In this document: piece by piece, positions 9,239 through 49,532 of the stretch
How positions within the stretch are numbered: the first letter of the stretch is position 1
How the letters are laid out: every line of letters begins with the position of its first letter
DNA from: Actinacidiphila acidipaludis
GTDB taxonomy: Bacteria; Actinomycetota; Actinomycetes; Streptomycetales; Streptomycetaceae
DNA length: 64,000 nt
Direction: 5' to 3'
Assembly (NCBI RefSeq): GCF_019890725.1
Contig: NZ_JAINZZ010000005.1
Span: forward strand, 1 to 64,000
Position numbers and translations under genes: made by a program
Notes under the pieces: generated by a model
Database searches by the model: none
What the model saw: the letters and a program-made list of their open reading frames with translations, nothing else
What the model was told of the DNA's origin: nothing

Positions 9239-10420
9239 ATGAGAACCCCTCTGCGAGCCTTCCGCTCGACGCGCAATGCTCTGCTGTCAGCCGCGGTGGC
9301 CATCGGCCTGGTCGTCGCGGGTCTTGTCACCCTGACGACCGCCCCGGCCGCACACGCCGACACGCAGATCTGCGACCAGTACGGCTCCACGACCATCCAG
9401 GGCCGTTACGTGGTGCAGAACAACCGCTGGGGAACCACGGCGACCCAGTGCATCAACGTCACCGGCAGCGGATTCCAGATCACCCAGGCCGACGGCACGG
9501 CGACCAACGGGGGCCCGAAGTCGTACCCCTCGGTCTTCTACGGCTGCCACTACACCAACTGCTCGCCGGGTACGAACCTCCCCGCGCAGCTCAGCACGAT
9601 CTCCAGTGCGCCGACCAGCGTCGCGTTCACCTACGTCGGAAACGCCGTCTACGACGCCGCGTACGACATCTGGCTCGACCCGACACCCCGCAAGGACGGG
9701 GTCAACCAGACCGAGATCATGGTCTGGTACAACCACACCAGCCCCGTCCAGCCGGTCGGCTCCAAGGTCGGCACCGCCAACGTCGCCGGGCGCAGCTGGG
9801 ACGTGTGGACGGGCAACAACGGCTCCAACAACGTGATCTCCTTCGTCGCGCCCTCGGCGATCGGCAGCTGGAGTTTCGACGTCAAGGCGTTCACCGACGA
9901 GACGGTCAGCCGCGGCCTCGCCCAGAACTCCTGGTATCTCACCAGTGTCCAGGCCGGCTTCGAGCCCTGGCAGAACGGGGTGGGACTGGCCGTGACGTCC
10001 TTCTCGTCCTCCGCGAACATCGGCGGGGGCGGCACGTCCGGTGGGACCAGCACCGGCGGGACCACGGGTGGGACGAGCAGCGGCGGGACCACGGGTGGCA
10101 CGGGCTCCTCGTCCTGCAAGGTCAGCTTCACCCCGCAGACATGGGCGGGTGGTTACACCGCGAGCGTCACGGTGTCGAACACCGGCTCCGCCGCCGTCAA
10201 CGGCTGGCGGGTGGGCTTCACCCTGCCGTCCGGCCAGACCGTCACGAGCGCCTGGAACGCCACGATCAGCCCTTCCTCCGGGTCGGTGACCGCGTCCAGC
10301 CTCGCGTACAACGCACAGATCCCGGCCGGCGGCTCCCAGTCCTTCGGCTTCCAGGGCGCCTACTCCGGGACCTTCGCCCAGCCCAGCGGCTTCACCCTCA
10401 ACGGCACCAGTTGCTCCTGA
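9239..10420 (+). CDS. Secreted GH12 endoglucanase with CBM2
   Basis: Retaining endo-beta-1,4-glucanase of the CelB type, 393 residues. Signal peptide 1-40 ends AHA. The GH12 domain spans about 41-260 with nucleophile E159 (NQTEIMVWYN) and acid/base E242 (AGFEPWQNG). A Gly/Ser/Thr linker at about 262-295 joins a C-terminal CBM2 cellulose-binding domain bounded by the two usual cysteines (SSCKVSF and GTSCS). It is the only secreted enzyme of the cluster with CBM2 rather than a ricin-type module. ATG follows AAGAGGAG. A LacI-type operator lies 56 bases upstream and a strong stem-loop follows the stop. Confidence 0.93.
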   Translation: MRTPLRAFRSTRNALLSAAVAIGLVVAGLVTLTTAPAAHADTQICDQYGSTTIQGRYVVQNNRWGTTATQCINVTGSGFQITQADGTATNGGPKSYPSVFYGCHYTNCSPGTNLPAQLSTISSAPTSVAFTYVGNAVYDAAYDIWLDPTPRKDGVNQTEIMVWYNHTSPVQPVGSKVGTANVAGRSWDVWTGNNGSNNVISFVAPSAIGSWSFDVKAFTDETVSRGLAQNSWYLTSVQAGFEPWQNGVGLAVTSFSSSANIGGGGTSGGTSTGGTTGGTSSGGTTGGTGSSSCKVSFTPQTWAGGYTASVTVSNTGSAAVNGWRVGFTLPSGQTVTSAWNATISPSSGSVTASSLAYNAQIPAGGSQSFGFQGAYSGTFAQPSGFTLNGTSCS

Positions 10421-10429
10421 CCGCCTCAC

Positions 10430-10465
10430 GCCGCGCCGGCCGCCCACCGCGGCAGCCGGCGCGGC
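10430..10465 (+). terminator. Terminator after GH12
   Basis: An 11-bp perfect stem (GCCGCGCCGGC, 10430-10440, complement 10455-10465) with a 14-base loop begins ten bases after the stop. Confidence 0.6.
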
Positions 10466-10516
10466 TCGTCGGCTCCCGTGCCTTGACTGCTCTCGCGGTG
10501 ATCCGTAGTTTCCCCA

Positions 10517-10528
10517 CCGAACGTTCGG
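10517..10528. promoter_or_regulatory. CCGAACGTTCGG palindrome upstream of GH43
   Basis: Perfect 12-bp palindrome 56 bases before the GH43 start. It has the CGAA...TTCG arms of BxlR-like sites with a two-base centre. Probable operator. Confidence 0.5.
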
Positions 10529-10583
10529 ACATTGCGGCGAAACAATTCGCCGTTGACCGGCGCCCGGGAAGGGACAACGCGCT

Positions 10584-12119
10584 GTGCACCTCTACGACAA
10601 CCCCGTGATCAGCGGTTTCCACCCCGATCCCAGCGTGTGCAGGGTCGGCGACGACTACTACCTGGTCTGCTCGAGTTTCGAGTACTTCCCCGGCCTGCCG
10701 ATCTTCCACAGCAGGGACCTGGTGCACTGGCGGCAGATCGGCAACGTGCTCGACCGTCCCGGGCAACTGCCGCTGCCGATACCCGGGACGATGGCCTCCC
10801 GTGGGCTCTACGCCCCGACGATCCGCCACCATGACGGTCTCTTCTGGGTGATCAACACCAACGTCAGCGGCGGCGGCAACTACATCGTGACGGCTGAGCG
10901 TCCCGAGGGCCCCTGGTCGGACCCGGTGTGGATCGACCTGCCCGGCATCGATCCCGACCTGGCATGGGAGGAGGACGGCACGTGCTGGTGCGCCTTCTCC
11001 GTCCCCGGAGTCCGTCTGGCCCGGATCGACCCGGTCAAGGGCGAGGTACTGGAGGGGCCTTTCCCCACCTGGTCGGGCACCGGCCTGAAGTACGCCGAGG
11101 CGCCCCACCTCTACCGCATCGGCGACTGGTGGTACCTGCTGCTCGCCGAGGGCGGCACCGAACGCGGCCACGCCGTTTCCGTCGCCCGTGCGCGGTCACC
11201 CCGCGGTCCCTGGGAAGGCGCGCCGGGCAACCCCCTGCTGTCCCACAGCGGCACCGACCGGCCCATCCAGAGCACCGGCCACGCCGACCTGGTCACCGCG
11301 CCCGACGGCACGTGGTGGATGGTGCTGCTCGGCACGCGGCCCCGCGGCTACACCCCCAACTTCCAGGTGCTGGGCCGCGAAACCTTCCTCACACCGGTGG
11401 AGTGGGACGCCCAGGGGTGGCCCACCGTGGCTCCCGTCCCCGAGCGGCACTCCGCGCCCGCCGGCGCCTGGCACCCGGTCCCGGAGCTGCCCGCACGCGA
11501 CGACTTCGACGCCCCCGCCCTGGCCCCGCACTGGATCTCGCCCTACGCCCGCCCCGCCGATGCCTGGTCGCTGACCGACCGGCCGGGGTGGCTCTCCCTC
11601 CGGGCCACCGGTCCCACCCTCGACCGTCCCGGGTACACCTTCGTCGGCCGCCGCCAGCAGCACCACGACTGCTGCGTCGGGGTGTCGGTGGACCCGGGCG
11701 CGGGGCGCGGCGGTCTGAGCGTGCGCATGGACGAGGCCCACCACTTCGACCTGGAGGTCGGCGGGGGCGAGCTCAGCGTCGTCGCCCGCATCGGCCCGCT
11801 GCGCCAGACCGTTGCCCGCCGCCCCGTTCCCTCCGGCCCGCTCACTCTCACGGTCACGATCCGCACCGACGACATCGTGTCGCCGTCGCCCGAGGCCCCC
11901 GGAATCGAGCCGACCGGGCCGGACACCATCGCCTTCCGGCTCGGCGATCCCGGCTCCACGGACGCCGCTCAGCCGCTCGCGGAACTCGAAGGGCGCTACC
12001 TGTCCACCGAGGTGGCCACCGGATTCACCGGCAGGGTCATCGGCATGTACGCGGTGGACGGGACGGTGGCTTTCGACTGGTTCCACTATGCCCGGGTGCC
12101 CTCCGGCGACGTCACCTGA
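10584..12119 (+). CDS. GH43 beta-xylosidase / alpha-L-arabinofuranosidase, cytosolic
   Basis: Inverting glycosidase, 511 residues. Residues 1-300 form the five-bladed propeller with general base D15 (GFHPDPSV), pKa-modulating Asp near 123-125 (GIDPDL) and acid E172 (YAEAPHLY). A C-terminal beta-sandwich (about 330-511) is the usual xylosidase C-terminal domain. The motif FEYFPGLPIFHSRDL places it near GH43 subfamilies 11/12. No signal peptide, so it trims imported xylo- or arabino-oligosaccharides in the cytosol. GTG at 10584 starts exactly at the conserved N-terminus; upstream is GGGAAGGGA. Has its own palindromic operator. Confidence 0.9.
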   Translation: MHLYDNPVISGFHPDPSVCRVGDDYYLVCSSFEYFPGLPIFHSRDLVHWRQIGNVLDRPGQLPLPIPGTMASRGLYAPTIRHHDGLFWVINTNVSGGGNYIVTAERPEGPWSDPVWIDLPGIDPDLAWEEDGTCWCAFSVPGVRLARIDPVKGEVLEGPFPTWSGTGLKYAEAPHLYRIGDWWYLLLAEGGTERGHAVSVARARSPRGPWEGAPGNPLLSHSGTDRPIQSTGHADLVTAPDGTWWMVLLGTRPRGYTPNFQVLGRETFLTPVEWDAQGWPTVAPVPERHSAPAGAWHPVPELPARDDFDAPALAPHWISPYARPADAWSLTDRPGWLSLRATGPTLDRPGYTFVGRRQQHHDCCVGVSVDPGAGRGGLSVRMDEAHHFDLEVGGGELSVVARIGPLRQTVARRPVPSGPLTLTVTIRTDDIVSPSPEAPGIEPTGPDTIAFRLGDPGSTDAAQPLAELEGRYLSTEVATGFTGRVIGMYAVDGTVAFDWFHYARVPSGDVT

Positions 12120-17466: not shown

Positions 17467-18246
17467 TTGGATGGCAACCCCGCACCGGCGGCAGCGGACG
17501 ACAGCGTCCCCGCGCAGGCGGTGGAGCAGACCCCGCCGGCGTACAGGCCCGGATACGAGCTCGTCGCCGAGGACATCCTGCAGCTCATCGCCGACACGAG
17601 ACTGCAGCCGGGCGATCGGATGCCCACGGAGAACCAGCTGGCCGCGCGCCTGGGCACGAGCCGCACGGTCGTGCGGGAAGCCGTCAAGATCCTCTCGGCC
17701 CTCGGGCGGGTGCGTGCGCACAAGGGGCGCGGGCTGTTCGTCGCCAACGACGAGGGAATGCTGGGCTCCTCACGCTGGGGAAGCTTCTTCCTGCCCACCG
17801 ACCTCGATCACGTCTACCGGCTGTTCGAGTTCCGCCGGGTGCAGGAGGTCGCCGCGAGCCGGCTCGCGGCGACCCGGGCGACCCCGGCGGATCTGCGGGC
17901 GATCGAGAAGGCCGCTCAAATGTGCCACGAAGGACACACGACCGGCCGGCGGGACCTGTTCGATCGCGGTGACGACGACTTCCACCTGAGCGTGGCCAAG
18001 GCCTCGCAGAATCCGTTCCTGGTGGACGCGGTCCGCGAGGTCCGCCGCCTCCAGCACCAGTCCAGCACCATCGGGCTGCACGGCACCGTCGGCGGCCACG
18101 CGGAGGAGGCGGTGGTGGAGCACGAGGCGATCTACCGTGCCATCAGGGAGGGCGACCCGGAGGCCGCGGCCGACGCGGCCACCGTCCACCTGGACCAGAC
18201 CCTGGAGGACTACCGCCGCGAGATCCAGCGCCGCGTCTTCGGCTGA
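17467..18246 (+). CDS. GntR-family regulator, FadR subfamily
   Basis: DNA-binding regulator of 259 residues. The winged helix (about 30-95) has the family recognition segment MPTENQLAARLGTSRTVVREAVK. An all-helical FCD ligand-binding domain follows (about 115-250), with metal-site histidines expected in FHLSVAKAS and HEAIYRAI. FadR-type proteins answer to sugar acids, sugars or other small carboxylates. TTG at 17467 follows a GAAGGAGGGG sequence; no ATG fits better. It follows the importer-GH51 operon but has its own promoter. The repeat at 17357-17373 is the likely operator. Confidence 0.88.
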   Translation: MDGNPAPAAADDSVPAQAVEQTPPAYRPGYELVAEDILQLIADTRLQPGDRMPTENQLAARLGTSRTVVREAVKILSALGRVRAHKGRGLFVANDEGMLGSSRWGSFFLPTDLDHVYRLFEFRRVQEVAASRLAATRATPADLRAIEKAAQMCHEGHTTGRRDLFDRGDDDFHLSVAKASQNPFLVDAVREVRRLQHQSSTIGLHGTVGGHAEEAVVEHEAIYRAIREGDPEAAADAATVHLDQTLEDYRREIQRRVFG

Positions 18247-25861: not shown

Positions 25862-26081
25862 GCACGTCTCTCGACGGCTCGCAGCTACCGCGGAACGGGC
25901 CGCCGGCCGCACCCGGCGGGTCCCGCCGCCCTCACCACGGTCGGCCGCACGCTCTCGCCGGCCACATCCGCCGTCGGGCATCGGGATCCCGCGCCCTCGA
26001 CCGACCCTCGCGGCGCACGGCCGCGGATCCACCATCTCGCCGCGTCACGACGCCGTGACGCCAAGCCGGAGGAGGACATCG

Positions 26082-27878
26082 ATGAGGACAAGATCCGCAC
26101 CGGGCCGTCTGGCCACCGCTGCCGCCGCCGTACTCGGACTCGCAGCACTGATCCTGACGCCCGGCACGAGCCATGCGGCACCGGGTGAATCCCTGAGCGT
26201 GCACCTGAGTTCCACCCGCGGACCGTCGACCGGCGTGGGTGAGGGCTTCCTCTACGGCGTCAGCCAGGACGGCACCCAGCCGGCGGACCAGTACCTCCAG
26301 CCGCTGGGCCTCAACGCCTTCCGGGGCGGCGGCTGGTTCTCGGGCGGCTGGATCAAGGACAACTACTCCTACGGGTCCGCCACCAAGGCCGACATCGCCT
26401 CGATCACCGCGCAGGCCCGCCGGCTGACCCAGCCGCCGTACCACGCCCAGTACCAGGTGCTCCTGAGCGATCTGTGGGGCAACAACGGCGGGCAGCCCTC
26501 GAACGAGGTGTACCCGTGTGACAACGGAAACTGCTCGAACTGGTCGAGTTTCATCGACACCACCGTGGGCGCGCTGCAGGCGACAGGCCTGCCGTTCGCC
26601 TACGACATCTACAACGAGCCGGACATCTCGGCCTTCTGGACCCGCGGGATGAACAGCACCCAGTACTTCCAGATGTGGGACACCGCCTTCCGGGAGATCC
26701 GCCGCGTCGCTCCGAACGCGACGATCGTCGGTCCATCTCTCGCCTTCACCCCGCAGAGCAACCCGGGCGAGTGGAACACCTGGCTGGCCCACGTCAAGGC
26801 GGCGGGTACGGTCCCCGACGAGATCACCAACCACGACGAGGGCGACGTCGACGACCCGGTGACGGTGTCGCAGGCGATCGACAACGCGCTGTCCGCGAAC
26901 GGCGTCTCCGCCCGCCCGCTGTCGGCGAACGAGTACCAGCCCGCGGACCGCCAGACGGCGGGAGTCACCGCCTGGTATCTGGCCCGGTTCGCGCAGTCCG
27001 GGTACACCAACGCCATGCGTGGCAACTGGGTGTGCTGCATGACACCGAACCTGACCGGGGTGCTCACCCAGAGCGGCGGGACGTGGCAGCCCAACGGCAA
27101 CTGGTGGGCCCTGCGCACGTACGCGGACATGACCGGGACCCTGGTCAGCACCTCCGGCCAGGTCAACTCCACGGCGATCTCCGCCGCGGAGGACAGCACG
27201 GCCAGGCGCGCGGTGGCCGTGATCGGCGACAGCAACGGGTACACGGGTACCGCCTCCGTGACCTTCGACGGCCTGGCGTCCGTACCCTGGCTGGCGAACG
27301 GCGGCAATGTGAACGTGACGGTCGAACGCGTCCCGGACCAGGCCCCGCTCAGCGCGCCGCAGGTGGTGTACAACCAGAACGTCAGCGCCTCGTCCGGTTC
27401 CCTGACCGTGCCTTTCACCTTCCAGGCGGCGCACGACGCCTTCGCGGTCTACCTGACCCCCGCCGGGTCCGCGAGCGGTGGTACCAGCGGTGAACTGCAC
27501 GCGGTGGGCGCGGGCAAGTGCCTGGACGTGCCGAACTCGTCCACCACGGCCGGTACCCAGGTGCAGATCTGGGACTGCGCGGGCGGCTCCAACCAGATGT
27601 TCACCCGCACCTCGTCCAACCAGCTGACCGTCTACTCCGGCGGCAGCCAGATGTGCCTCGACGCCGACGGCCGGGGCACCAGTCCCGGTACCAAGGTGAT
27701 CGTCTACGGGTGCAACGGCCAGGACAACCAGCAGTGGGACATCCGCTCCGACGGCACCGTCACCAGCGCGCTCTCGGGTCTGTGCCTGGACGTGACCGGC
27801 GCCGGAACCACCGACGGCACGCTGGTCGAGTTGTGGACCTGCAACGGCGGCGCCAACCAGCGGTGGTCGCTCGGATAG
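26082..27878 (+). CDS. Secreted GH39-like glycosidase with CBM13
   Basis: 598 residues. Signal peptide 1-32 ends SHAA. The catalytic part (about 35-330) looks like a clan GH-A barrel, with probable acid/base E179 in IYNEPDIS and probable nucleophile E284 in SANEYQ. A beta-sandwich (about 350-460) and a C-terminal ricin-type CBM13 (about 473-598, three QxW repeats) follow. GH39 or a relative is the best guess; known activities there include beta-xylosidase and arabinosidase-type enzymes. The cysteines in YPCDNGNC may form a disulphide. ATG follows GGAGGAGG. Probably controlled by the LacI protein just upstream. Confidence 0.72.
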   Translation: MRTRSAPGRLATAAAAVLGLAALILTPGTSHAAPGESLSVHLSSTRGPSTGVGEGFLYGVSQDGTQPADQYLQPLGLNAFRGGGWFSGGWIKDNYSYGSATKADIASITAQARRLTQPPYHAQYQVLLSDLWGNNGGQPSNEVYPCDNGNCSNWSSFIDTTVGALQATGLPFAYDIYNEPDISAFWTRGMNSTQYFQMWDTAFREIRRVAPNATIVGPSLAFTPQSNPGEWNTWLAHVKAAGTVPDEITNHDEGDVDDPVTVSQAIDNALSANGVSARPLSANEYQPADRQTAGVTAWYLARFAQSGYTNAMRGNWVCCMTPNLTGVLTQSGGTWQPNGNWWALRTYADMTGTLVSTSGQVNSTAISAAEDSTARRAVAVIGDSNGYTGTASVTFDGLASVPWLANGGNVNVTVERVPDQAPLSAPQVVYNQNVSASSGSLTVPFTFQAAHDAFAVYLTPAGSASGGTSGELHAVGAGKCLDVPNSSTTAGTQVQIWDCAGGSNQMFTRTSSNQLTVYSGGSQMCLDADGRGTSPGTKVIVYGCNGQDNQQWDIRSDGTVTSALSGLCLDVTGAGTTDGTLVELWTCNGGANQRWSLG

Positions 27879-27940: not shown

Positions 27941-29875
27941 TCACGACGCGCTCGTCTCGGCCGGATGCCCGTCGAAGGGCGAGCGGTAGGAGGGTGTCCG
28001 GGTGCGCAGGGCGAGTCGCAGGGAGAGGCGGATCCGGGACGAGCGCGGCAGGTCGACCCGCAGCCAGGGGCCGCCGACGTCGGTGGTGGCGGACTCGACG
28101 GCGGGCGCGCGGTGGCCGTAGTCGTACAGGTCGCCGATCCAGGACGGGTCGGTGCACGTGGAGTACTCCGCCGAGCGGATGGTGTGTTCGGCGAAGGCGC
28201 CGGCCTGAACGATCACCGGACGCGCGTGCTCGGGGTCGAGGTTGACCAGCTCGACGACGGTGGCCTCGGGGTCGATGGAGGAGACCAGGGCCGCCACGGA
28301 CGGCGGCAGGCCCGGACGGCCGGCGGTGGCGTCGTGGTAGCGCAGCCGGGCCTGCTGGAGGCCGCCGTTGTAGACGACCTGCGGGCCTCCCCAGGTGAGG
28401 TGGACCAGAGCCTCGGTGACGACGGGGTTGGACTGCTGCCACAGGTGGATGTCGGCTTCCGGGACGTCCCGGTCGCGGTGACGCTCCATGCGGGCCAGGC
28501 GGTGGCGTACCTGGGCCTGGGCGGCGGCCAGGATCTTCTCGGGGTAGTCCGGGTTGTCGCCGGCGAGGAAGGCGAGCCAGGGTTCCTCGTGGCCGGCTTC
28601 CTCCTTGCTGCGGAAGGGGCGGACCGTTCGCCAGTCGTGGCCGGCGGCCGCGCGCAGGTGCTCGATGCGGGCCCGGTCGGCGGCGCCTGCGGTGTGGTGC
28701 CACAGGGCGGTGGGGACCGCCATCAGCATCGGGTTGTGGTCGAACCAGCCCTGGTCGCCGTACCGGAAGGGGACGTGGAAGGTGGGGGTGTGCACGTCCT
28801 CACCCAGCTGCGGCATCCACTTGGAGCGGATGCTGGAGTCCGCCTCCGTGAAGGGCATCACCTTGCCGTGGGCGATGATCTCGTCCAGGGCCGGACGGAC
28901 CAGGTCCAGGCAGGAGTCGTCGCCGGTGACGGCGGCGCCGGCCAGGGCGGCGACGATGGCCGCGTGGCCGACGCTGTACCACCCGTGGGGCCAGGACCAG
29001 CCGTAGTGGCCGCCGTACCAGCGCCCTTCGAGCAGTCCGCCGACGTTCCCGTCCGGATCGACGTTGTCGGGCAGGATCCCCCCGTTGGCGGCGGCGCGGT
29101 CGCGCCAGGCGCCGACGTACTGCGCGATCCAGTCCGCGTAGCGCCGGTCGCCGGTGAGTATCCAGGCGTTGAGGACCAGGCCGGTGGCGGCGAGGTTGAC
29201 GGCGGTGTCGCCTGAGCCCATCCGGCGGCGCATCTCCGCGCCGAGCCGCGGGTCGGCGTCGAGCGGGGGCTGCTCGGCGCCGTACGGCAGTATCCAGTCC
29301 AGCGGAAAGCCGTACGTGTCCGCTTCCTTGGGCAGCCAGGGGTACGTGTCGCCGTCGAACAGTCCCTCGCGCCGCGGGTCGCTACCGTTGTGCGGGCGGC
29401 GGACGACGCGGTGCTCGGGGTCGTAGTTGCCGTGCCGGGGGTCCACGTAGAGCTCCGCGAAGCGCACCGCCCGCCCCCGCCACCGGTCGGGGGCGGCCAT
29501 GCACAGGAAGTAGAGCAGCAGCAGGCTCTCGCCCTGGTGGAACCAGTCGTAGCCGCGCTCGTACTCGTCCTTGAGCATGCCCAGCTCGGTGAGCTGGCGG
29601 GTGACGCCCTCCCAGTGCCGCTCGGCCTGTTCGAGCAGGTCGTCGGCTCCGCCGAGCAGGTAGAGCTGGGGCCAGTTGAAGAAGACCTCGTAGAAGTCGT
29701 CGACGCCGTCGCGGGAGGTCAGGGTCCCGCGGTAGCGCAGCCGTCCGTCCGGACCGGTGAAGTCGCGGGCGAACCGGCGCCAGGCCCGGTCGAGCAGGTC
29801 GAACAGCTGACGTTGTGCTGTCGCCCAGCCAGGCGGCTCCAGCAGCGGTACCGAAGCCGTGATGACGGGAAGCAT
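27941..29875 (-). CDS. Unrecognised cytosolic protein, probable (alpha/alpha)6 glycosidase
   Basis: 644 residues, no signal peptide and no membrane segments. I do not recognise the family. The helix-rich middle with repeated aromatic and acidic patches (FYEVFFNWPQLYLLGG, YDWFHQGESLLLLYF, WYGGHYGWSWPHGWYSVGHA) resembles six-hairpin glycosidases, and the last 150 residues look beta-rich. It is the last gene of an operon after a binding protein and two permeases, with a 100-base gap, which supports a role in cleaving the imported sugar. ATG at 29875 is chosen since GGGAGA lies eight bases before it; ATG at 29890 has no ribosome binding site. Catalytic residues cannot be assigned. Confidence 0.6.
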   Translation of the reverse strand: MLPVITASVPLLEPPGWATAQRQLFDLLDRAWRRFARDFTGPDGRLRYRGTLTSRDGVDDFYEVFFNWPQLYLLGGADDLLEQAERHWEGVTRQLTELGMLKDEYERGYDWFHQGESLLLLYFLCMAAPDRWRGRAVRFAELYVDPRHGNYDPEHRVVRRPHNGSDPRREGLFDGDTYPWLPKEADTYGFPLDWILPYGAEQPPLDADPRLGAEMRRRMGSGDTAVNLAATGLVLNAWILTGDRRYADWIAQYVGAWRDRAAANGGILPDNVDPDGNVGGLLEGRWYGGHYGWSWPHGWYSVGHAAIVAALAGAAVTGDDSCLDLVRPALDEIIAHGKVMPFTEADSSIRSKWMPQLGEDVHTPTFHVPFRYGDQGWFDHNPMLMAVPTALWHHTAGAADRARIEHLRAAAGHDWRTVRPFRSKEEAGHEEPWLAFLAGDNPDYPEKILAAAQAQVRHRLARMERHRDRDVPEADIHLWQQSNPVVTEALVHLTWGGPQVVYNGGLQQARLRYHDATAGRPGLPPSVAALVSSIDPEATVVELVNLDPEHARPVIVQAGAFAEHTIRSAEYSTCTDPSWIGDLYDYGHRAPAVESATTDVGGPWLRVDLPRSSRIRLSLRLALRTRTPSYRSPFDGHPAETSAS

Positions 29876-29975
29876 GAGGGGATCTCCCATTCAGGGCATG
29901 GCGGCGCGCGCCGTCCGTGCGGGACGGCGGAGGACGCCGCGTCGGGGCACCCGCGCGACGGGGTGTGCGGGTCGG

Positions 29976-30929
29976 TCAGTCCTTGGTGGCGCCGGCGAGC
30001 ATTCCGGCGACCAGGAAGCGTTGTGCGAAGAGGAAGACCACCAGGACGGGTGTGATCGCCAGCAGGGTCGCCAGAGCCAGTTCGGGGCGTTGGACCTCCA
30101 GGGCGCCGGCCGTGGGGTTGAACTGCGGGACCGAGTCCAGCAGCGTGCCCAGGCCCACCTGCACCGGGAGTTGGTCGTCCTGCGGCAGCATCACGTACGG
30201 CAGGTAGTAGTTGGTCCAGTTCGCCACGAAGCTGAAGAAGCCGACCAGGGCGATGACGGGAGCCGCCAGCGGCAGCGCCACCCGCCTGAAGACGCCGAAC
30301 TCCGAGCAGCCGTCCAACCGGGCGGCGTCCAGCAGTTCCCGGGGCAGGGCGGTGCTGAAGTAGATGTACGTCAGGTACACCCCGAACGGGTAGAACGCGT
30401 ACGGCAGCACGATCGACCACATCGAGCCGATCAGGTGGACCGCGTTGACCTCCAGGAACAGCGGTACGACCAAGGTGGCGTTCGGCATCAGCATCACCAC
30501 GAGCGTGGCGATCAGCAGCGCGCGGCGGCCGCGGAACTCGGTCATCGCCATGGCGTAGCCGGCCGGTACCGCCACGCACACGGTGATGACCAACGCGACG
30601 GAGGAGTACAGGGCGGAGTTGCGCAGCCACCTGAAGATCGCGTCGCCCTGGTAGGCGGTCAGCGCGTCCCAGTTGGCGCGCAGGGCGTGGAAGGAGCCGA
30701 AGGACAGGGGGTTGCCGCCGACCAGTTGGTCGTCGGTCTTCGTGGCGGCGAGCAGCAGCCACAGCACCGGCAGGACGAAGAAGGCCACGAACAGCAGCAG
30801 GACCAGGGCCGGCAGCGGATTGACACGGCGCCTCGCGGCACGGCCGATCCGCGCGGGTTCCCGCACCGCCGGTCCGGAGCGGATGCCGGCCGGGCCGGCG
30901 ACGATACCCCACCGGGTGTCAGTCCGCAT
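29976..30929 (-). CDS. Carbohydrate ABC permease, MalG type (importer 3)
   Basis: CUT1 permease, 317 residues, six membrane segments after a basic 35-residue leader. The EAA loop reads ELLDAARLDGCSEFGVF, and the end FLVAGMLAGATKD is typical. The ATG at 30929 lies within the upstream permease, an 11-base overlap. Part of the operon binding protein, permease, permease, putative glycosidase. Confidence 0.9.
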   Translation of the reverse strand: MRTDTRWGIVAGPAGIRSGPAVREPARIGRAARRRVNPLPALVLLLFVAFFVLPVLWLLLAATKTDDQLVGGNPLSFGSFHALRANWDALTAYQGDAIFRWLRNSALYSSVALVITVCVAVPAGYAMAMTEFRGRRALLIATLVVMLMPNATLVVPLFLEVNAVHLIGSMWSIVLPYAFYPFGVYLTYIYFSTALPRELLDAARLDGCSEFGVFRRVALPLAAPVIALVGFFSFVANWTNYYLPYVMLPQDDQLPVQVGLGTLLDSVPQFNPTAGALEVQRPELALATLLAITPVLVVFLFAQRFLVAGMLAGATKD

Positions 30930-31833
30930 CGAAGAACCCCGATCTGGCGACGAAGACGCCCGCCACGACCAGCCCGACCACCAGCAGTTCCACCGAGACG
31001 GCGGCCGCGGTGTTGACGTCGTTGTTCTGGAAGGCGAAGTCGTAGGCGAGCTGGTTGAGCGAGTAGTCCCGGCCCGCCACGCCGTTGCTGGCCTGGGAGA
31101 GGAGCTGCGGTTCGACGAACAACTGGGTGCCGCCGGCGAAGGCGAGGATGACCATGTAGACGATCCACTTGCGCAGCATGGGGATCTGGATCCGCCACGC
31201 CGTCTGCAGGGCTCCGGCGCCGTCGATCCTCGCGGCCTCCAGGATGTCGGCCGGGATGTTGTTCAGCGCTCCGTACATCACCACGATCCAGCCGCCGGCG
31301 CCGGTCCAGAACGCGATGAGAGTGAACAGGACCGGCAGGTGACCGGGGGCGATGACCTGGCCGAAGGCGTGGTAGCCCAGGGCACGCAGCAGGAAGCCGA
31401 CCGGGCTGACCGTGGGGTCCAGTACGAACAGCCACACCAGCACGCCGGCCGCCCCGGCCAGCGCGCCCGGCACGTAGTACAGGAAACGCAGGAGCCTGCT
31501 CAGCCCCTTCATCGCCATGCGGTGCACCAGCAGGGCCAGCCCGACGACGAACACGACCAGGGAGACCAGCCACCACGCCAGGTAGAGGACCACGTGCCCG
31601 ACCGCGGGGCCGAAGCGGAAGTCGTCGAAGGCTGTGCTGAAGTTGGACAGGCCCGCGAAGGAATCGGCGTTGTCGGTGAACGCGAAGTAGATCGCGTATC
31701 CGGTGGGGACCACGCCGAAGGCGACCAGCAGCACCGTGTAGGCGGCGACGAAGGTGTGCCCGGCGCTGCCGGGCCACGGTGTGCGCGTGCGGCGCGCCGC
31801 GGCCCGGCTCGCGCCGGTGGACGGCGCGGTCAC
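30919..31833 (-). CDS. Carbohydrate ABC permease, MalF type (importer 3)
   Basis: CUT1 permease of 304 residues with six membrane segments; the EAA loop reads DILEAARIDGAGALQTAW. GTG at 31833 overlaps the stop of the binding-protein gene (GTGA), so translation is coupled. The C-terminus carries a final hydrophobic segment LVVGLVVAGVFVARSGFF. No ATPase is encoded nearby. Confidence 0.9.
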   Translation of the reverse strand: MTAPSTGASRAAARRTRTPWPGSAGHTFVAAYTVLLVAFGVVPTGYAIYFAFTDNADSFAGLSNFSTAFDDFRFGPAVGHVVLYLAWWLVSLVVFVVGLALLVHRMAMKGLSRLLRFLYYVPGALAGAAGVLVWLFVLDPTVSPVGFLLRALGYHAFGQVIAPGHLPVLFTLIAFWTGAGGWIVVMYGALNNIPADILEAARIDGAGALQTAWRIQIPMLRKWIVYMVILAFAGGTQLFVEPQLLSQASNGVAGRDYSLNQLAYDFAFQNNDVNTAAAVSVELLVVGLVVAGVFVARSGFFDAD

Positions 31834-33200
31834 CGCGCCACCTTGTAGCCGTCGGCCCGGGCGTAGTTGACGATGGCGTCCTTCCAGGCCGGCAGGAGCG
31901 AGGTGACCGTCCTGCCGGCCGTCAGCTTCGGGGTCACCGTGGCCGCCCAGACCGCCTCCTGGCTGAACTGCCCGTAGCCCCAGCCGTCCCACACCTGGTC
32001 GGCCGCCGTCTGCAGGGTGCCGGTGATGTCGCCGGCGTAGTAGCCGGAGGACGCCTGCTGGGCGAGCCAGGCCGTGGCGGCCGCCTGGAAGGCCGGGTAG
32101 CCGGGCGCCGTCTTGCCCTGGTAGTCGTTCGAGGTCGTCACCCAGGTCATGAAGGCCGTGGCGGCTTTGAGGTTCGCGCTGTGCGCGGAAAGCAGCCAGG
32201 TCCCGCCGCCGACGTTGCCGGTCGACGGAGCGGTGTCACCGGACCACTGGGGCAGCGGTGCGGCCGCGATCTGGTGCGCGGGCGTCTTGAAGGTGCCCTG
32301 GAAGACCGAGCCGCCGTACCAGGACGGGCCGGCCAGCATCAGGACCTTGCCGGCCTTGTTCTTGTCGAAGTCCGAACTGAAGACGCTGCTCAGCGACATC
32401 GACTTGTTCTTGATCAGCGTGTCCAGCAGCGACGCCATCCGGGTGCAGTTCGGGCCGCTGGTGTCGACCGTGACCGCCTTGGGCCCGGTGACCTGGTTGG
32501 CCCCGCACTTGCTCGCCCACATGTAGACCTCGGGGGTCCACGGGTCACCTGCCGAGCCGATCAGGTACCCGGGGTGCTCGGTGGCCACCTTCTCCCCCAG
32601 GGCCTGGTACTCCTCCCAAGTCCTGGGAACCTGGTAGCCCCACTGCTTCATCAGCGGCTCGTTGTACCACAGCACCGCCTGGGACAGGTCGTTGCGCAGG
32701 CAGTACAGGGTGCCGTCGACGGTGCACGGGGCGTTGGCCCCCTTCGCCCAGCCGGACAGCGTCGAGGCGGGGATCCGGCCCTTGTTCAGTGGGGCGGCGA
32801 AACCGTCCTGCACCGCCCACGTCGCCTCGTTGTTCTGACTGCTGAAGACCACGTCCGGCCAGCCCTTGCGGGTGCGGTTGAACAGGCTGACCTTCGTGCG
32901 CAGGTAGTTGGAGCCGTTGGCGTCGCCGTCGTAGGTGACGATGTCCATCTTCACTTCGGGGTGCTGCCGCTGGTACAGCTTCGCCGCCGGCAGCCGTGTC
33001 GAGTCCACCCACACGGTCAGGGTGCCGCCGGTCTGCTTCACGGGGTGGAAGCCGCCGGAACCGCTCGTGCCGCCGCCACCGCCACTCCCGCATGCCGCGG
33101 TGACCGCCAGCACGAGCACACCCCCTGCAGCCACGAGCCCGGTGCGTCTGCGAGTCCTCCCGGATGCCTGTGCGCCGACCGCGCGGACCTTCGCTCTCAT
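31830..33200 (-). CDS. Sugar-binding lipoprotein of importer 3
   Basis: Solute-binding protein of 456 residues. A long basic leader precedes the lipoprotein signal GVLVLAVTAACGSGGGGG. The ligand domain is family 1 but clearly distinct from the other binding proteins of the window (start GGTLTVWVDSTRLPAAKLY). Four cysteines in the mature part (APCTVDGTLYC, SKCGANQ, GPNCTRM) may form two disulphides. The 333-base region upstream contains the ATGAGT-N3-ACTCAT repeat and a 16-bp palindrome. Ligand unknown; the operon partner is an unrecognised putative glycosidase. Confidence 0.88.
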   Translation of the reverse strand: MRAKVRAVGAQASGRTRRRTGLVAAGGVLVLAVTAACGSGGGGGTSGSGGFHPVKQTGGTLTVWVDSTRLPAAKLYQRQHPEVKMDIVTYDGDANGSNYLRTKVSLFNRTRKGWPDVVFSSQNNEATWAVQDGFAAPLNKGRIPASTLSGWAKGANAPCTVDGTLYCLRNDLSQAVLWYNEPLMKQWGYQVPRTWEEYQALGEKVATEHPGYLIGSAGDPWTPEVYMWASKCGANQVTGPKAVTVDTSGPNCTRMASLLDTLIKNKSMSLSSVFSSDFDKNKAGKVLMLAGPSWYGGSVFQGTFKTPAHQIAAAPLPQWSGDTAPSTGNVGGGTWLLSAHSANLKAATAFMTWVTTSNDYQGKTAPGYPAFQAAATAWLAQQASSGYYAGDITGTLQTAADQVWDGWGYGQFSQEAVWAATVTPKLTAGRTVTSLLPAWKDAIVNYARADGYKVAR

Positions 33201-33486: not shown

Positions 33487-33537
33487 CTGACGTTCCCGGG
33501 GGCAGCGTGGGTGCACCGCCCCCGGGCACAGCGTCAG
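33487..33537 (-). terminator. Terminator of the GH59-GH29 genes
   Basis: CCCGGGGGC (33495-33503) pairs with GCCCCCGGG (33518-33526); outer arms CTGACG and CGTCAG extend the stem. The right arm overlaps the GH29 stop. Confidence 0.7.
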
Positions 33538-35516
33538 ACCCCGGTGATCGTCCACGCGTTGTTGGTGCTGGAGTTCGGTGTCCACAGCACCGTGGTCGAG
33601 CCGGCCGAGGTGCTGCCGGCACCGTCGAGGGCGGTGCCGGTGCCGCGGTTGACGATCTGATAGCGGCCGTTACCCAGGTTGGTGAGCGACCACTGCTGGT
33701 TGTTGCCACCGTTCCAGGTCGTCTGCCGGGCGGGGGCGCCGTTGGCGGTGTTGCCCCAGCTGTCGGCCACCATGCCGTTGGTGCGGTTGACGATGCGGTA
33801 GTAGCCGTCGCCGAGGTCCACCAACTGCCACTGCAGATTGGTGCTCCCGTCGTAGTTCCACTGCTTGAGGTTGGAGCCCGAGGCGACGTTGCCGCCGCTG
33901 TCGAGCACCAGTCCGGTGGTGACGTTGGCGATCTTCACGTATCCGGTGCCGATCCCCCCGCCGCCGAGTGCCGGGATCTGGCCGGAGAAGGTGAGTTTGA
34001 CCGTGTACGCCAGGGCGCTGAACGGCGCACTGGAGGAAGGCATGGCCAGGTGCAGGCCGGAGCCGTCCTGCGTCGGCGTGGGCAGGTTGACGTAGCTGCC
34101 GGCCGCGTTGTTCAGCAGCTGTGCGCTGGTCAGGCTGCTGATGGCGAACTGGTTGGAGTTGAGGGTCGAGATGGTCATGGTGCCGCCCTGCCAGCCCAGG
34201 GAGGTCGCGTAGAGCACCTTGTTGTCCTGGCTGCGGGTGAACCGGACGTCCTGCGCGACGCCGGCCTTGGGTCCGCTGAACGAGCCGCCCCCCATGGCGG
34301 TCGGGCCCTCGCCGTAGCTGCTCCAGGGGCGGGTGCCGTAGATCGCCTCTCCGAACCGGCCGAGCCAGTCACCCATGCCGCGCAGGATGGTCTGCTGGCC
34401 GGAGGGGATGGTGCCGTCGGCCATGGGGGCGATGTTCAGCAGCATGGTGCCGCCCTTGCTGGTCCGGTCGATCAGCGCGTGCAGCAGGGCCTGCGTCGTG
34501 TAGTAGCCGATGCCGTTGGTGTAGCACCAACTGGAGGACGAGATGCTGTCGTCGGTGAGCCAGTAGGGCGACATGAGGCCCGCGGGCCCGCCGCGTTCGA
34601 AGTCGAAGACCTCGCCCTTGTCGTCCAGGCCGTCCTTGTACGTCGCGGCGACGTCCTTGTTCCAGGACACGGCCTTGTTGTAGTAGTACGCCAGGAACTG
34701 CAGCCGGTAGGACTCCTGCACCAGCCCCAGGTCGAAATCCTGCCAGATCAGGTCAGGTTGGTAGCCGTCGATGACCTCGACCAGCTTGTTGTACCAGAGC
34801 TGGTTCTCGGCGGCCGTGCCCTGCTGCCCGTACAGGACGCGCAGGGTCGCGTCCGACTGGTACGGCACGTGGTCGTAGTAGCCGTTGAAGTGGTACGCGT
34901 GGTGCAGCGACGTCATGAACTTGAGGCCCTGGCCACGGATCGCCTGCGCGTGCAGGTTCACCAGGTCCAGCTTCGGGCCGTGCTGCACGGAGTTCCACGG
35001 GTTGGACCTGCTGTTCCACATGGAGAACCCGTCGTGGTGCTCGGCGACGGGGCCGGCGAACCGGGCGCCCGCCGCCTTGAACAGCTGCGCCCACGCGTCG
35101 GGGTCGAAGTTGCCGCCCGCCGAAGCCAGTTTGGGGGCGAACTGCACGAAGTTGCCGGCCTTGTCGCGGGCGCCGTCGATGAAGTTGTTGTACGGCCACG
35201 CCGACGGGTCACCGTAGGTGGCGATGTGGTGCTGGTTCTCGGCAGATCCGCCGATGTACATGTTGCGCGGGTACCACTCGTTGCCGAAGGCGGGGACGCT
35301 GAAGACGCCCCAGTGGTAGTAGATGCCGAACTTGGCGTCCTGGAACCAGGCCGGGGCCGGAGGGTGCTGGTCCACCGACGACCAGCTCGCGCTGTAGCTG
35401 CCCGGGCCGTCGGTCGCGGCGGCCTCGGGAGCGAACCGCAGCAGGCCGAACGCGGAGGCCGCGCCGGCCGCCGCCAGCAGCCGACGCCGGCTGATGGGGT
35501 GCGAGGAGGAGGACAT
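33534..35516 (-). CDS. Secreted GH29 alpha-L-fucosidase with ricin-type lectin domain
   Basis: Retaining fucosidase, 660 residues. The N-terminus SSSSHPISRRRLLAAAGAA is a twin-arginine signal. The GH29 barrel (about 45-420) shows FGIYYHWGVFSVP, a histidine pair in AEHHDGFSMW and the likely nucleophile D260 in PDLIWQDFD. A beta-sandwich (about 420-525) and a ricin-type module (about 527-660) with QQW-like repeats complete it. It starts 65 bases after the GH59 stop with AAAGGAC before the ATG at 35516, so the two are probably one transcript. It could remove fucose from xyloglucan or arabinogalactan chains. Confidence 0.88.
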   Translation of the reverse strand: MSSSSHPISRRRLLAAAGAASAFGLLRFAPEAAATDGPGSYSASWSSVDQHPPAPAWFQDAKFGIYYHWGVFSVPAFGNEWYPRNMYIGGSAENQHHIATYGDPSAWPYNNFIDGARDKAGNFVQFAPKLASAGGNFDPDAWAQLFKAAGARFAGPVAEHHDGFSMWNSRSNPWNSVQHGPKLDLVNLHAQAIRGQGLKFMTSLHHAYHFNGYYDHVPYQSDATLRVLYGQQGTAAENQLWYNKLVEVIDGYQPDLIWQDFDLGLVQESYRLQFLAYYYNKAVSWNKDVAATYKDGLDDKGEVFDFERGGPAGLMSPYWLTDDSISSSSWCYTNGIGYYTTQALLHALIDRTSKGGTMLLNIAPMADGTIPSGQQTILRGMGDWLGRFGEAIYGTRPWSSYGEGPTAMGGGSFSGPKAGVAQDVRFTRSQDNKVLYATSLGWQGGTMTISTLNSNQFAISSLTSAQLLNNAAGSYVNLPTPTQDGSGLHLAMPSSSAPFSALAYTVKLTFSGQIPALGGGGIGTGYVKIANVTTGLVLDSGGNVASGSNLKQWNYDGSTNLQWQLVDLGDGYYRIVNRTNGMVADSWGNTANGAPARQTTWNGGNNQQWSLTNLGNGRYQIVNRGTGTALDGAGSTSAGSTTVLWTPNSSTNNAWTITGV

Positions 35517-45328: not shown

Positions 45329-47734
45329 TCAGGACAGCGTCCATTGCTGGTTGGATCCGCCGTTGCAGGTCCACAGCTCCGCCAGGGCGCCGTTGGCCGT
45401 CGACGCCCCGGTCACGTCCAGACACAACCCGGACTGCACCCCGGTGATCGTGCCGTTGGAGTTGAACGTCCACTGCTGATTCGCCTGCCCGTTGCACGTC
45501 CAGGTCGCCACCTTCGTCCCCGGCGCCGTGCCCTTGTTACTGGCATCCAGACACAGCTGACTGCCACCGCCGAACACCGTCAGCTGACCGGAGGACGTCC
45601 GCGTCCACGACTGGTTCGCCTGACCGCTGCAATCCCAGATCTGCACCTGCGTCCCCGGCGTCATCGACGAGTTCGGCACATCCAGACACCTGCCCGCACC
45701 CACCGCACGCAGCGCACCCGACGTCCCCCCACCGGAGCCCGTCACACCCGCCTGGGCCATCACCTGCTGTGCGCCGGACGGCCAGCTGGCGCCGCTGACC
45801 TGGACGTTTCCGGTCAGGACGTTGTTGTGCGGTGAGCCGGTGGCGACCTGCGTCGCCCCCGCGTTGTACCAGTTCCCGGAGAAGGTGCTGTCGCTGGTGT
45901 TGTTGGTGCTACTGGCGTTGGTGAAGGCCCACACACCCGAGTCCTGGATCACGTTGTCGCTCAGGCTCACGTAGCGCGAACCCTCGTCGAGGTACAGGCC
46001 GACCGTGTGCTGGTTGTCGTAGACGTAGTTGTGGTCGATGCTGGCACCCGGGTTGGCGGACAGGTTGTAGATGCTGCCGCCGTCGTGGAAGACCTTCTTC
46101 GTTCCGTGCACCAGGTTGTAGCTGACCACGGTGTTCTTCAGAGTGGTGGCCGTGGTGTAGACCGGCTGGTAGTCGTACAGGCCGCGGTTGCGGTAGTCCT
46201 GACTGCCCCCGGCGTCGTTGGCGCCCCAGCCCCAGCCGACGTCGATGCCGTCGTAGGCGAGGTCGGCGACCTCGTTGTGGCTGATCACCGCGTGGGTGAC
46301 GTAGGTCGACAGGATGCCGGCCATGTCCTTGTAGTCCTTGGCCACGTCACTGATCCGGTTGCCCTGGATGGTGATGTTCTGGTCGGTCATCGCGGGGTTC
46401 GACGGGTGGTGGGCGTCGGGCTGGACGCCGCCGACCACGATGCCCGCTCCGGAGTCGTCGGTGAAGGCGCTGCCCGCGACCGTGACGTTCGAGGCGCCCA
46501 GGCCCACGCCGGAGGCGTGGGCGTCGGCGTCGTTGCCGATACCGAGACCGACCTGGCCCAGATGGGCGAAGGCGTCACCGGTGAAGGTGATGTTGCCGGC
46601 GGCGGAGACCTGCACGGCCGCCGGAACCTGGTTCCAGCTGTTGCGGGCGGCCTCGAAGAGCCGGCATCCCGACTGGCAGGACGTCATGAAGTCCGAGGGC
46701 TGCGCGAAGGTCCGGGCCAGGAACGTACCGCTCTGCTGGTCCGCGTAGCCCACGCTGCTGCTGGGCTGCAGCCATGTCGTGTGCTCGAAGGCGATGCCCT
46801 GGAAGGTGATGTCGTGGGCCGGGCTCGAGTAGCTGCCGCCGACCTGGAGCAGCGAGCTGAGCTGCGGCAGTTCGATGTCGTGCGCGGTGGGCGACCAGCC
46901 GGCGGGCGCCTTGTAGTACAGCTGTCCCGCCTGCGGGTCGAGGTACCACTGGCCGGCGTTCTTCAGGAACGCGTAGGAGTTCTCGAGCTGCAGGGAACCG
47001 CCCGCGAAGGGGCTGGCCAGGGTGTCGTAGCCCCAGTTGTTGTTGTTCCACGCCGGCTGCTGCATCGTGACCGTGGAGCCGCTGATCGACTGCACCGGGG
47101 CGTAGCGGTCGGTGAAGGAGTTCTGGCTCTCCACCTCGATCCGGTTCTGCTGCGGCAGCGTGGCCAGGTAGTCGAGTGCCGCGTTGACGAGGGTCATCCC
47201 GCTCGCGGTGACGCGTACGTCGTTGCGCGAGATCGTGACGGCGGCCCGCGGGGCGAGCAGGTTGTCCACGTACAACTGCCGCGAGTCGGTACCGGCCGGC
47301 ACGGACGCGGCGTAGATGTTGTTCGCCGAGTCCTTCAGCGACCATCCCGTCACCTGCCGACCGCCCGAGATCACCGGCGTCACACCCGGGGCCGCCTGCC
47401 AGACCACGGCGTGCCCGTTGCTGCCGGAGTCCGCGGCACCCAGCGCGAGCGGTGCGGAGAGCCGGTACGTGCCGCCCGCCAGCTGCACCACGATGTCGCC
47501 GGTCATGTTGCCGTCGAGGGCCTCGACGGAGGCCTTCGCCTGCGTCAGCGAGCAGGGGGCGGCCGCGGAGCAGGAGGTGCCGCTGCCGGTGGGCGAGACG
47601 TACACGGTGGTCATGGTCGCCGCGTGCGACGTCACGGCGGGAGCGGCGGCGACGACGCCGGCGGCCAGCGCCGCGACGATCACCGCCCGCAGCGGTCGGC
47701 CTTCCGCAGGGCGTCTGCGCAGGGTGAACATCAT
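45329..47734 (-). CDS. Secreted right-handed beta-helix enzyme, GH141-like, with CBM13
   Basis: 801 residues, signal peptide 1-39. The N-terminal region opens TVYVSPTGSGTSCSAAAPC, followed by PVISGGRQVTGW, and a long parallel beta-helix with Asn/Asp/Gly turns (NITFTGDAFAHLG, NITIQGNRISDVA, AVISHNEVADLAYDG). The layout is like GH141, whose known members include a fucosidase and a xylanase; the family call is tentative. A C-terminal CBM13 (about 670-801) differs from the GH10 one by two residues only. ATG at 47734 (next ATG 47731) follows GAGAGAGAG. Likely substrate: a complex, decorated cell-wall glycan. Confidence 0.75.
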   Translation of the reverse strand: MMFTLRRRPAEGRPLRAVIVAALAAGVVAAAPAVTSHAATMTTVYVSPTGSGTSCSAAAPCSLTQAKASVEALDGNMTGDIVVQLAGGTYRLSAPLALGAADSGSNGHAVVWQAAPGVTPVISGGRQVTGWSLKDSANNIYAASVPAGTDSRQLYVDNLLAPRAAVTISRNDVRVTASGMTLVNAALDYLATLPQQNRIEVESQNSFTDRYAPVQSISGSTVTMQQPAWNNNNWGYDTLASPFAGGSLQLENSYAFLKNAGQWYLDPQAGQLYYKAPAGWSPTAHDIELPQLSSLLQVGGSYSSPAHDITFQGIAFEHTTWLQPSSSVGYADQQSGTFLARTFAQPSDFMTSCQSGCRLFEAARNSWNQVPAAVQVSAAGNITFTGDAFAHLGQVGLGIGNDADAHASGVGLGASNVTVAGSAFTDDSGAGIVVGGVQPDAHHPSNPAMTDQNITIQGNRISDVAKDYKDMAGILSTYVTHAVISHNEVADLAYDGIDVGWGWGANDAGGSQDYRNRGLYDYQPVYTTATTLKNTVVSYNLVHGTKKVFHDGGSIYNLSANPGASIDHNYVYDNQHTVGLYLDEGSRYVSLSDNVIQDSGVWAFTNASSTNNTSDSTFSGNWYNAGATQVATGSPHNNVLTGNVQVSGASWPSGAQQVMAQAGVTGSGGGTSGALRAVGAGRCLDVPNSSMTPGTQVQIWDCSGQANQSWTRTSSGQLTVFGGGSQLCLDASNKGTAPGTKVATWTCNGQANQQWTFNSNGTITGVQSGLCLDVTGASTANGALAELWTCNGGSNQQWTLS
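45337..45739. repeat. CBM13 DNA repeat, copy 2 (beta-helix gene)
   Basis: Direct repeat of 38130-38532 with equal length, no gaps and about eight mismatches. Two of these change amino acids (Lys to Arg in GAGKCLD, Gln to Lys in DASNQGT). Confidence 0.9.
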
Positions 47735-47774
47735 GAAGGGCTCTCTCTCGGGGGGATGAACTTCACGGGGCCGC

Positions 47775-47796
47775 CCCCGGCCGGTACGGGCCGGGG
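47775..47796 (-). terminator. Hairpin after GH54 (third copy)
   Basis: CCCCGGCC and its complement with a six-base loop between the third GH54 gene and the beta-helix gene. Likely a terminator; a second GGGCC hairpin lies nearer the stop. Confidence 0.5.

Positions 47797-47873: not shown

Positions 47874-49532
<1,659 letters not shown>

Follow-up and report, generated by a model that had tools for sequence, protein, structure and literature searches.

Target gene and importer operon

The stretch of DNA analysed here (the window) comprises 64,000 nucleotides of contig NZ_JAINZZ010000005.1 from Actinacidiphila acidipaludis. The gene under study (the target) is the last gene of an ATP-binding cassette (ABC) sugar-importer operon and probably encodes a glycosidase of a family without a curated Pfam or NCBIfam model. 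The operon lies entirely on the minus strand, in the order solute-binding protein, permease, permease and target (Table 1), and the target begins 100 bases 3' of a permease stop codon. The first-pass annotation had described a 644-residue protein without signal peptide, encoded directly after a sugar importer, and our data were in agreement with each of these points. The longest open reading frame (ORF) spans positions 27941-29890 of the minus strand (649 residues) and provides the residue numbering used throughout. The ATG at 29875, which gives 644 residues, was preferred to the start at 29890 because a GGGAG stretch is found 8 bases 5' of it and several close homologues begin at the same place. 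In the matching frame of the plus strand, positions 27941-29875 contain an internal stop. Codon-position G+C contents of 0.73/0.50/0.93, as in a real gene, together with homologues of 72-88% identity, indicate that the target ORF is not due to chance. No signal peptide was seen: among 19-residue windows beginning within the first 40 residues, the highest hydropathy was 1.1. The listed start of the MalF/UgpA-like permease overlaps the solute-binding gene, and the true start is for this reason probably further in.

Table 1. Coordinates of the target gene, its predicted domains and conserved segments, and the associated genes of the window
Feature	Positions	Strand	Basis
Target protein gene	27941..29875	minus	644 aa; ORF, codon-position GC, homologues
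Predicted (alpha/alpha) helical barrel, about residues 20-500	28391..29833	minus	AlphaFold2; structural matches span residues 19-568
Predicted C-terminal beta domain, beta-sandwich-like, about residues 516-630	28001..28345	minus	AlphaFold2 strands
Invariant D61, D64, D65, E68, first turns of helix 60-68	29687..29710	minus	25/25
Invariant D115, W116, H118, E121, loop before and start of helix 119-132	29528..29548	minus	25/25
Invariant D228, N232, start of helix 229-246	29195..29209	minus	25/25
Invariant W291, Y296, W298, motif WYGGHYGW, loop before helix 306-322	28997..29020	minus	25/25
ABC sugar permease, MalG/UgpE-like	29976..30929	minus	PF00528, 1.4e-15
ABC sugar permease, MalF/UgpA-like	30919..31992	minus	PF00528, 3.1e-9
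Importer solute-binding protein, lipoprotein-like N-terminus	31830..33200	minus	PF01547, 2.3e-18; lipobox judged by eye
GH29 alpha-L-fucosidase-type enzyme, twin-arginine-like N-terminus, ricin-type lectin domain	33534..35516	minus	PF01120, 3.2e-86
GntR/FadR-type regulator	17467..18246	plus	PF00392/PF07729

Sequence family and distribution

Comparison of the target with Pfam and with NCBIfam returned no family at E<=1 in either collection, and no match was found among PDB sequences at E<=10. For 17 diverse members of the family, the best Pfam match was Spatacsin_C (E 0.045, a chance match) and NCBIfam gave none. A narrower family profile retrieved two solute-binding chains from the PDB (E 0.014); these were taken as chance matches since they disappeared with a wider profile, which found nothing at E<=10. 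That the protein could not be placed in a known glycoside hydrolase (GH) family from its sequence thus agrees with hidden Markov model scans of Pfam and NCBIfam, with PDB sequences and, by profile or BLASTP, with small sets of GH154/DUF2264, GH127, GH88/GH105 and alginate lyase proteins. Judged by Pfam, NCBIfam and the PDB, the target would represent a new sequence family inside a known fold class. It may still correspond to an existing family of CAZy, whose own models lay outside the comparison. No description of the family was recognised in the literature, which is weak evidence since the family is nameless.

The family is real, widespread and thinly distributed. Of 319 pattern matches among 84,980 species genomes, 312 encode a relative, and the best 80 of these 312 stretches, all from actinobacteria according to their titles, hold proteins 72-88% identical to the target. 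A relative was present in two of 396 genomes of a phylum sample, one of them the source genome, and in seven of 150 genomes of a sample of family f8, which may be Microbacteriaceae, once as a fragment only. Plasmid records yielded 17 matches out of 72,556, of which three were actinobacterial (50-74% identity to the target), two alphaproteobacterial (30-32%) and 12 haloarchaeal (36-38%); 12 of these copies are annotated as 'hypothetical protein' and five have no annotation. Among viral contigs, 83 stretches fitted the pattern and none encodes a relative. A second, paralogous subfamily (L090/L092, L087, L088/L091) is 31-36% identical to the target, and genome G458 carries both subfamilies.

Predicted fold

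An AlphaFold2 model of the target, for which 57 sequences sharing 71-88% identity with it were aligned, reached a predicted local distance difference test score (pLDDT) of 79.7 and a predicted template modelling score (pTM) of 0.87. It showed alternating helices up to about residue 500, followed by strands at 516-630; the barrel folded alone gave a poorer model (pLDDT 68.4, pTM 0.76). A helical (alpha/alpha) barrel followed by a C-terminal beta-sandwich is supported by this model, in a fold class of which some toroids are not sugar enzymes. The (alpha/alpha)6-barrel appearance noted in the first-pass annotation was recovered at the level of predicted fold, as a toroid of alternating helices whose structural matches, mostly (alpha/alpha) toroids in both Foldseek and VIA comparisons, were generic. 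Nine Foldseek matches to the PDB at E<=0.001 comprised AGE epimerases/isomerases, GH127 enzymes and the lyase GAGase II (8khv). GH76 and GH88 structures stood lower in the list, an unrelated protein, complement C5, appeared at E 2.7e-3, and among the 50 matches listed template modelling scores reached 0.36 by query and 0.54 by target. VIA matches were mostly GH76, GH47, AGE and GH88 proteins, with Z between 11.6 and 13.9 and 7-14% identity. GH154 entries were absent from the 50 Foldseek and 50 VIA matches listed, which is not proof of unrelatedness. A viral structure library gave no match at E<=0.001.

Conserved residues and comparison with known toroid families

Conservation was assessed on 25 sequences from five groups: five from the actinobacterial main group, five from family f8 together with the Streptomyces plasmid copy L097, three from the second paralogous subfamily, ten from haloarchaea and two from alphaproteobacteria. 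Seven acidic residues (D61, D64, D65, E68, D115, E121 and D228), at or near loops before alternate helices, were invariant in all 25, as were W382, located on a strand, and N155, D405, W22, Y148, W254, Y258, W262, R265, W397, W438 and N550, besides the other residues of Table 1. The only fully invariant arginine was R265, in helix 249-268, and K429 was kept in 23 of the 25 sequences, being missing from the two alphaproteobacteria. No cysteine, and no histidine other than H118, was conserved in 23 or more of the 25. Judging from the alternation of helices in the model, the segments of Table 1 are expected around one opening of the barrel. Their many invariant carboxylates and aromatic residues look like the pocket of a glycosidase, and fit less well with a lyase or dehydratase pocket of the Tyr/Arg type proposed for BcGDH (PMC12269599).

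Several toroid families resemble the target in some features and depart from it in others. GH127 beta-L-arabinofuranosidases (PF07944) share a helical barrel with beta domains and a similar length, and matched the model with a Foldseek E of 2.5e-4. An hhalign comparison with 25 GH127 proteins gave a probability of 8.5 and an E of 0.0039 over 92 columns, above the controls and not significant. GH127 enzymes use a catalytic cysteine in a Cys-Zn centre, which must be absent from the target family since no cysteine is conserved; together with the lack of a PF07944 match, this led us to reject GH127 membership. GH76 and GH47 alpha-mannosidases supplied the best VIA matches (Z 13.9 and 13.3, about 9-14% identity), but the target has no Pfam match to them and their Z values were tied with those of other toroids, within the range expected from a common arrangement. 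Against four alginate lyases the hhalign probability was 0.70; a C5-epimerase was present in only one of 60 genomes. Six control pairs among these families scored between 0.07 and 1.1, and with profiles as shallow as these the method is therefore blind to relations between such toroids.

The best Foldseek E-values (down to 1.5e-4) belonged to AGE epimerases and sulfoquinovose isomerases, which are (alpha/alpha) barrels as well, and would suit an AGE-type sugar epimerase or isomerase, or some other barrel protein without hydrolytic activity. AGE enzymes have two catalytic histidines and no C-terminal beta domain like that of the target. H118 is the sole conserved histidine of the target family, and the listed AGE chains are of about 390-425 residues. 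Membership in this superfamily was rejected on the histidines, and a non-hydrolytic barrel protein of this kind is given only a slight chance, the least of the explanations weighed here.

Gene neighbourhoods in actinobacteria

Neighbour families were obtained by clustering the ORFs of the best 80 of the 312 loci, some of them short, and were named from one representative per cluster. Where 4.5 kb or more of upstream sequence was available (72 loci), a solute-binding gene was found in 68, a divergent FadR regulator in 65 and a permease in 58. Opposite-strand short ORFs ('cluster 9', 17 loci) were judged by eye to be artefacts of the ORF caller, and the lower number of permease calls is probably due to the same artefact. 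Downstream, 38 of the 75 loci that extend 1.5 kb or more held, within 1.6 kb, a fucono-lactonase-like gene which we take to be of the COG3618 type. Anywhere in the 80 loci, the lactonase occurred 42 times, a Zn-dehydrogenase 26, an aldo-keto reductase 20 and a rhaM mutarotase (PF05336) 15 times, followed by KduD (15; its representative scored 326 bits with TIGR01832, cut-off 338.85), a 2-keto-3-deoxy-6-phosphogluconate (KDPG) aldolase (10) and a PfkB kinase (nine). The lactonase was closest to L-fucono-1,5-lactonase in a comparison with NCBIfam models (NF052480; at 200 and 138 bits it fell short of the cut-off, 400, and is hence related and unconfirmed), with 4dlf as nearest solved chain, and the nearest solved chains of the aldo-keto reductase were L-galactose dehydrogenases. 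GH29-type or beta-helix genes (clusters 12, 14, 20 and 24) were present in 29 of the 80 loci, and one beta-helix protein of cluster 12 carries a GH141 insertion domain. A full L-galactose route via 2-keto-3-deoxygluconate (KDG) in Streptomyces, made up of reductase, lactonase, Zn-dehydrogenase, KduD, kinase and aldolase, was considered and is only inferred, because the acid-sugar dehydratase that it needs was not recognised in the conserved operon.

Of six stretches from family f8 (L106-L111), three (L106, L107 and L109) carried a reductase and a lactonase close to the target relative, with an RraA-like gene between the two in L107. The lactonase was about 8 kb away in L110. Two stretches belong to the second subfamily: hardly any ORFs were called by the filter in L111, and L108 had neither reductase nor lactonase among its neighbours, which include an enolase-superfamily enzyme and an importer of its own. 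The Streptomyces plasmid copy L097 was accompanied by a reductase only. A DUF2264 (GH154) gene was also observed in L106 (L106:17347-19329, minus strand), about 6 kb from the target relative.

In the source genome, adjacent homologues of the reductase and the lactonase (46% and 48% identical) were located on contig C97. The same locus (L149:2807-11447) comprises an acid-sugar dehydratase of the enolase superfamily, with no NCBIfam match above cut-off, a short-chain dehydrogenase/reductase, a three-gene importer of the monosaccharide type and a GntR regulator, and by its gene content looks like an L-fucose-type oxidation operon. GH88/GH105 proteins were absent from the source genome at E<=1e-20.

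Gene neighbourhoods in haloarchaea and alphaproteobacteria

Ten of the 12 haloarchaeal plasmid records were examined (H11 and H13 were left out), and uronate or pectin genes were found near six of the ten copies. A pectate lyase or GH28 gene was present in four stretches (L094, L098, L101 and L103), a mannonate dehydratase with a tripartite ATP-independent periplasmic (TRAP) carrier in L093, and a glucuronate isomerase in L099. Enzymes resembling galactonate dehydratase occurred in L099, L100, L105 and, at its edge, L104; the two that were tested scored 203 and 234 bits, below the cut-off of 311. L102 held an ABC importer and a GH4 gene.

Both alphaproteobacterial homologues (L095:8917-10758 and L096:about 8908-10740) are directly preceded by a major facilitator superfamily carrier of the D-galactonate subfamily (425.5 and 425.6 bits, cut-off 395). 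KdgD is encoded nearby on the opposite strand, with 431 bits in L096 (cut-off 374), and with 72% identity and a kdgD annotation in L095. Both target homologues begin with a twin-arginine motif followed by a hydrophobic stretch, resembling by eye a signal for twin-arginine translocation (Tat). Because of these Tat-like N-termini and the adjoining galactonate-type carrier, the alphaproteobacterial enzyme is probably periplasmic, placed beside an acid-sugar carrier, and the actinobacterial and haloarchaeal enzymes probably act inside the cell. This carrier and Tat context provides the best hint that the products include an acidic sugar.

Proposed function

The invariant carboxylates and the gene neighbourhood are compatible with a glycosidase; less probably, the target may be a non-hydrolytic sugar enzyme. 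On balance, we take the target to be a cytoplasmic (alpha/alpha)-barrel exo-glycoside hydrolase acting on short oligosaccharides with a uronic acid residue, an L-fucose or L-galactose residue, or both. Secreted, lectin-bearing enzymes of the plant-cell-wall cluster around the target, which by their family matches include a GH29-type fucosidase, would trim a plant polysaccharide, and the three-gene ABC importer would bring in a short oligosaccharide. The target would cleave this in the cytoplasm by means of an invariant carboxylate pair, with D64/D65/E68, D115/E121 and D228 as candidates. The freed sugars may then enter an L-fucose/L-galactose-type oxidation through the aldo-keto reductase and lactonase, whose genes were observed, or, in a minority of genomes, pass through KduD, KDG kinase and KDPG aldolase. 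Substrates may differ between subfamilies. A bolder proposal, which can be put forward only tentatively, is that of a new GH family of actinobacteria, haloarchaea and alphaproteobacteria splitting acidic disaccharides in which a uronic acid is linked to a 6-deoxyhexose or L-hexose, such as those of rhamnogalacturonan or arabinogalactan-protein side chains. It would work in the cytoplasm once the ABC importer has taken up the sugar, or in the periplasm next to a carrier of acid sugars.

A narrower form of the favoured reading is an intracellular alpha-L-fucosidase or alpha-L-galactosidase that involves no uronate and feeds L-fucose/L-galactose oxidation. The relationships of the lactonase and of the aldo-keto reductase point in this direction, as do the rhaM mutarotase, the GH29-type or beta-helix genes of relative loci and the GH29-type gene upstream of the window's importer. 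It leaves unexplained, however, the acid-sugar carriers and KdgD of the alphaproteobacteria, KduD and KDG kinase in Streptomyces and the four haloarchaeal copies near pectin genes, and we regard it as rather unlikely. All the grades of confidence given here are judgements, and their sum is not one because this explanation overlaps with the favoured reading.

Another explanation is based on a uronate dehydratase or lyase like BcGDH, formerly placed in GH154, which would remove water from a terminal uronate and let another enzyme free an unsaturated sugar for KduD, KDG kinase and KDPG aldolase. GH154 (DUF2264; BcGDH, BT3677; PDB 9o4u, 9nwf and 8oi4) was the first suspect because of the uronate gene context, and it resembles the target in being a sugar enzyme of uronate clusters that occurs in haloarchaea. 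A dehydratase or lyase would account for the KduD, KDG kinase and KDPG aldolase genes 3' of the target in some Streptomyces operons and for the uronate genes near haloarchaeal and alphaproteobacterial copies. The separate DUF2264/GH154 protein of L106 and GAGase II among the nine best Foldseek matches are consistent with it. The same holds for weak single-member Pfam matches to alginate lyase (two of 17 members, best E 0.068) and to C5-epimerase (one of 17, E 0.068), beside which stood four plainly unrelated Pfam families with E 0.045-0.54. Membership in GH154/DUF2264 was nevertheless rejected: none of the 17 members matched PF10022 at E<=1, and the best BLASTP E against a DUF2264 protein was 1.0. 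That comparison protein, which matches solved beta-D-glucuronic acid dehydratase chains, comes from a polysaccharide utilisation locus (PUL) on a haloarchaeal plasmid which PMC13260240 cites for its PL8 locus, and we infer that its gene is the GH154 gene mentioned there. According to PMC12269599, GH154 has been shown to be a dehydratase and BcGDH is proposed to use two tyrosines and one arginine; the named segments of the target hold, in terms of residue conservation among the 25 sequences, one invariant tyrosine (Y296) and no invariant arginine. In addition, the source genome offers no GH88/GH105 partner at the threshold given above. A dehydratase or lyase is considered unlikely.

The target may also be an unsaturated uronyl hydrolase analogous to GH88/GH105, its substrates being unsaturated disaccharides that pectate or rhamnogalacturonan lyases release and the importer takes up. 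GH88/GH105 proteins (PF07470) share the (alpha/alpha) barrel and the uronate context, the GH88 structures 2fv0 and 1vd5 were among the VIA and Foldseek matches, and pectate lyases accompany four of the ten haloarchaeal copies. As the source genome lacks GH88/GH105 at E<=1e-20, a substitute could be needed. D228-x3-N232 may resemble an Asp-x3-Asn motif of GH88. Membership was rejected, on the other hand, since no PF07470 match was obtained and the hhalign probability against six GH88/GH105 proteins was 0.29 (with a shallow profile); moreover, the solved chains are of about 377 residues and lack the extra C-terminal domain of the target. KduI and KdgF were not recognised among the clusters of the conserved operon, where no model search was aimed at either. 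KdgD and glucuronate isomerase, which are encoded near relatives, serve the use of saturated uronates. Such a hydrolase appears quite unlikely.

A number of observations weigh against the favoured exo-glycoside hydrolase. The lactonase was missing within 1.6 kb from 37 of the 75 actinobacterial loci, the window included, and the close reductase-lactonase pair from three of the six f8 stretches. KduD, kinase and aldolase genes were limited to between nine and 15 of the 80 loci, and a close KduD was not found in the source genome (best match 39% identical). Among haloarchaea, four of the ten copies (L100, L102, L104 and L105) had no annotated pectin or uronate-isomerase gene nearby. The uronate and the L-fucose/L-galactose contexts came mostly from different relatives, which need not share one substrate. 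No fully invariant arginine or lysine was found in the named segments of the 25 sequences, which is unusual for binding of a uronate carboxylate, and pLDDT fell below 50 in several key-residue loops, among them residues 113-117 and 292-304. Finally, the VIA list also holds toroids that are not glycosidases (7tkv with Z 13.5, 3t33 and 8sao), and a Z of 13.9 can be attained by helical models through a common arrangement alone; the comparison therefore supports the fold class and indicates no particular family.

Found in 312 stretches and three distant groups, the family has no curated Pfam or NCBIfam model, and identification of its reaction would annotate several hundred genes together. It would also fill a step in the use of acidic or fucosylated plant sugars by soil streptomycetes, salt-loving archaea and others. 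A non-hydrolytic uronate enzyme, if true, would be of note as well, given the dehydratase activity assigned to GH154 in PMC12269599.

Other features of the window

The GH29-type gene is co-directional with the importer and lies upstream of it. It is 44-84% identical to members of cluster 14, in which it is included and which was found in ten of the 80 relative loci. The FadR-type regulator of the window is 71% identical to the divergent regulator located beside the importer in relative loci; it is found about 13.6 kb from the solute-binding gene, next to an arabinofuranosidase-type gene and another importer. Within the 64-kb window, no match at E<=1e-6 was obtained with representatives of the lactonase, reductase, Zn-dehydrogenase, mutarotase, KduD, kinase and aldolase clusters.

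Ricin-type lectin domains were present in 11 of 27 scanned ORFs of the window, between positions 7086 and 49505. The enzymes linked to them include GH62, GH29, GH59 and GH10 proteins, three of the alpha-L-arabinofuranosidase B type, a GH5-like and a GH141-like protein, and others. In the protein encoded at 7086-9023 (minus strand), the part outside the lectin domain had no Pfam match at E<=0.01, and in that at 26055-27878 (plus strand) it gave only a sub-threshold GH39 match. The protein encoded at 45329-48130 (minus strand) combines a lectin domain with a weak match to the GH141 insertion domain, and is 31% identical to a beta-helix protein whose gene is located near the target in other genomes. 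A GH127-family gene (PF07944, 320.7 bits) is located at 3797-5743 on the minus strand.

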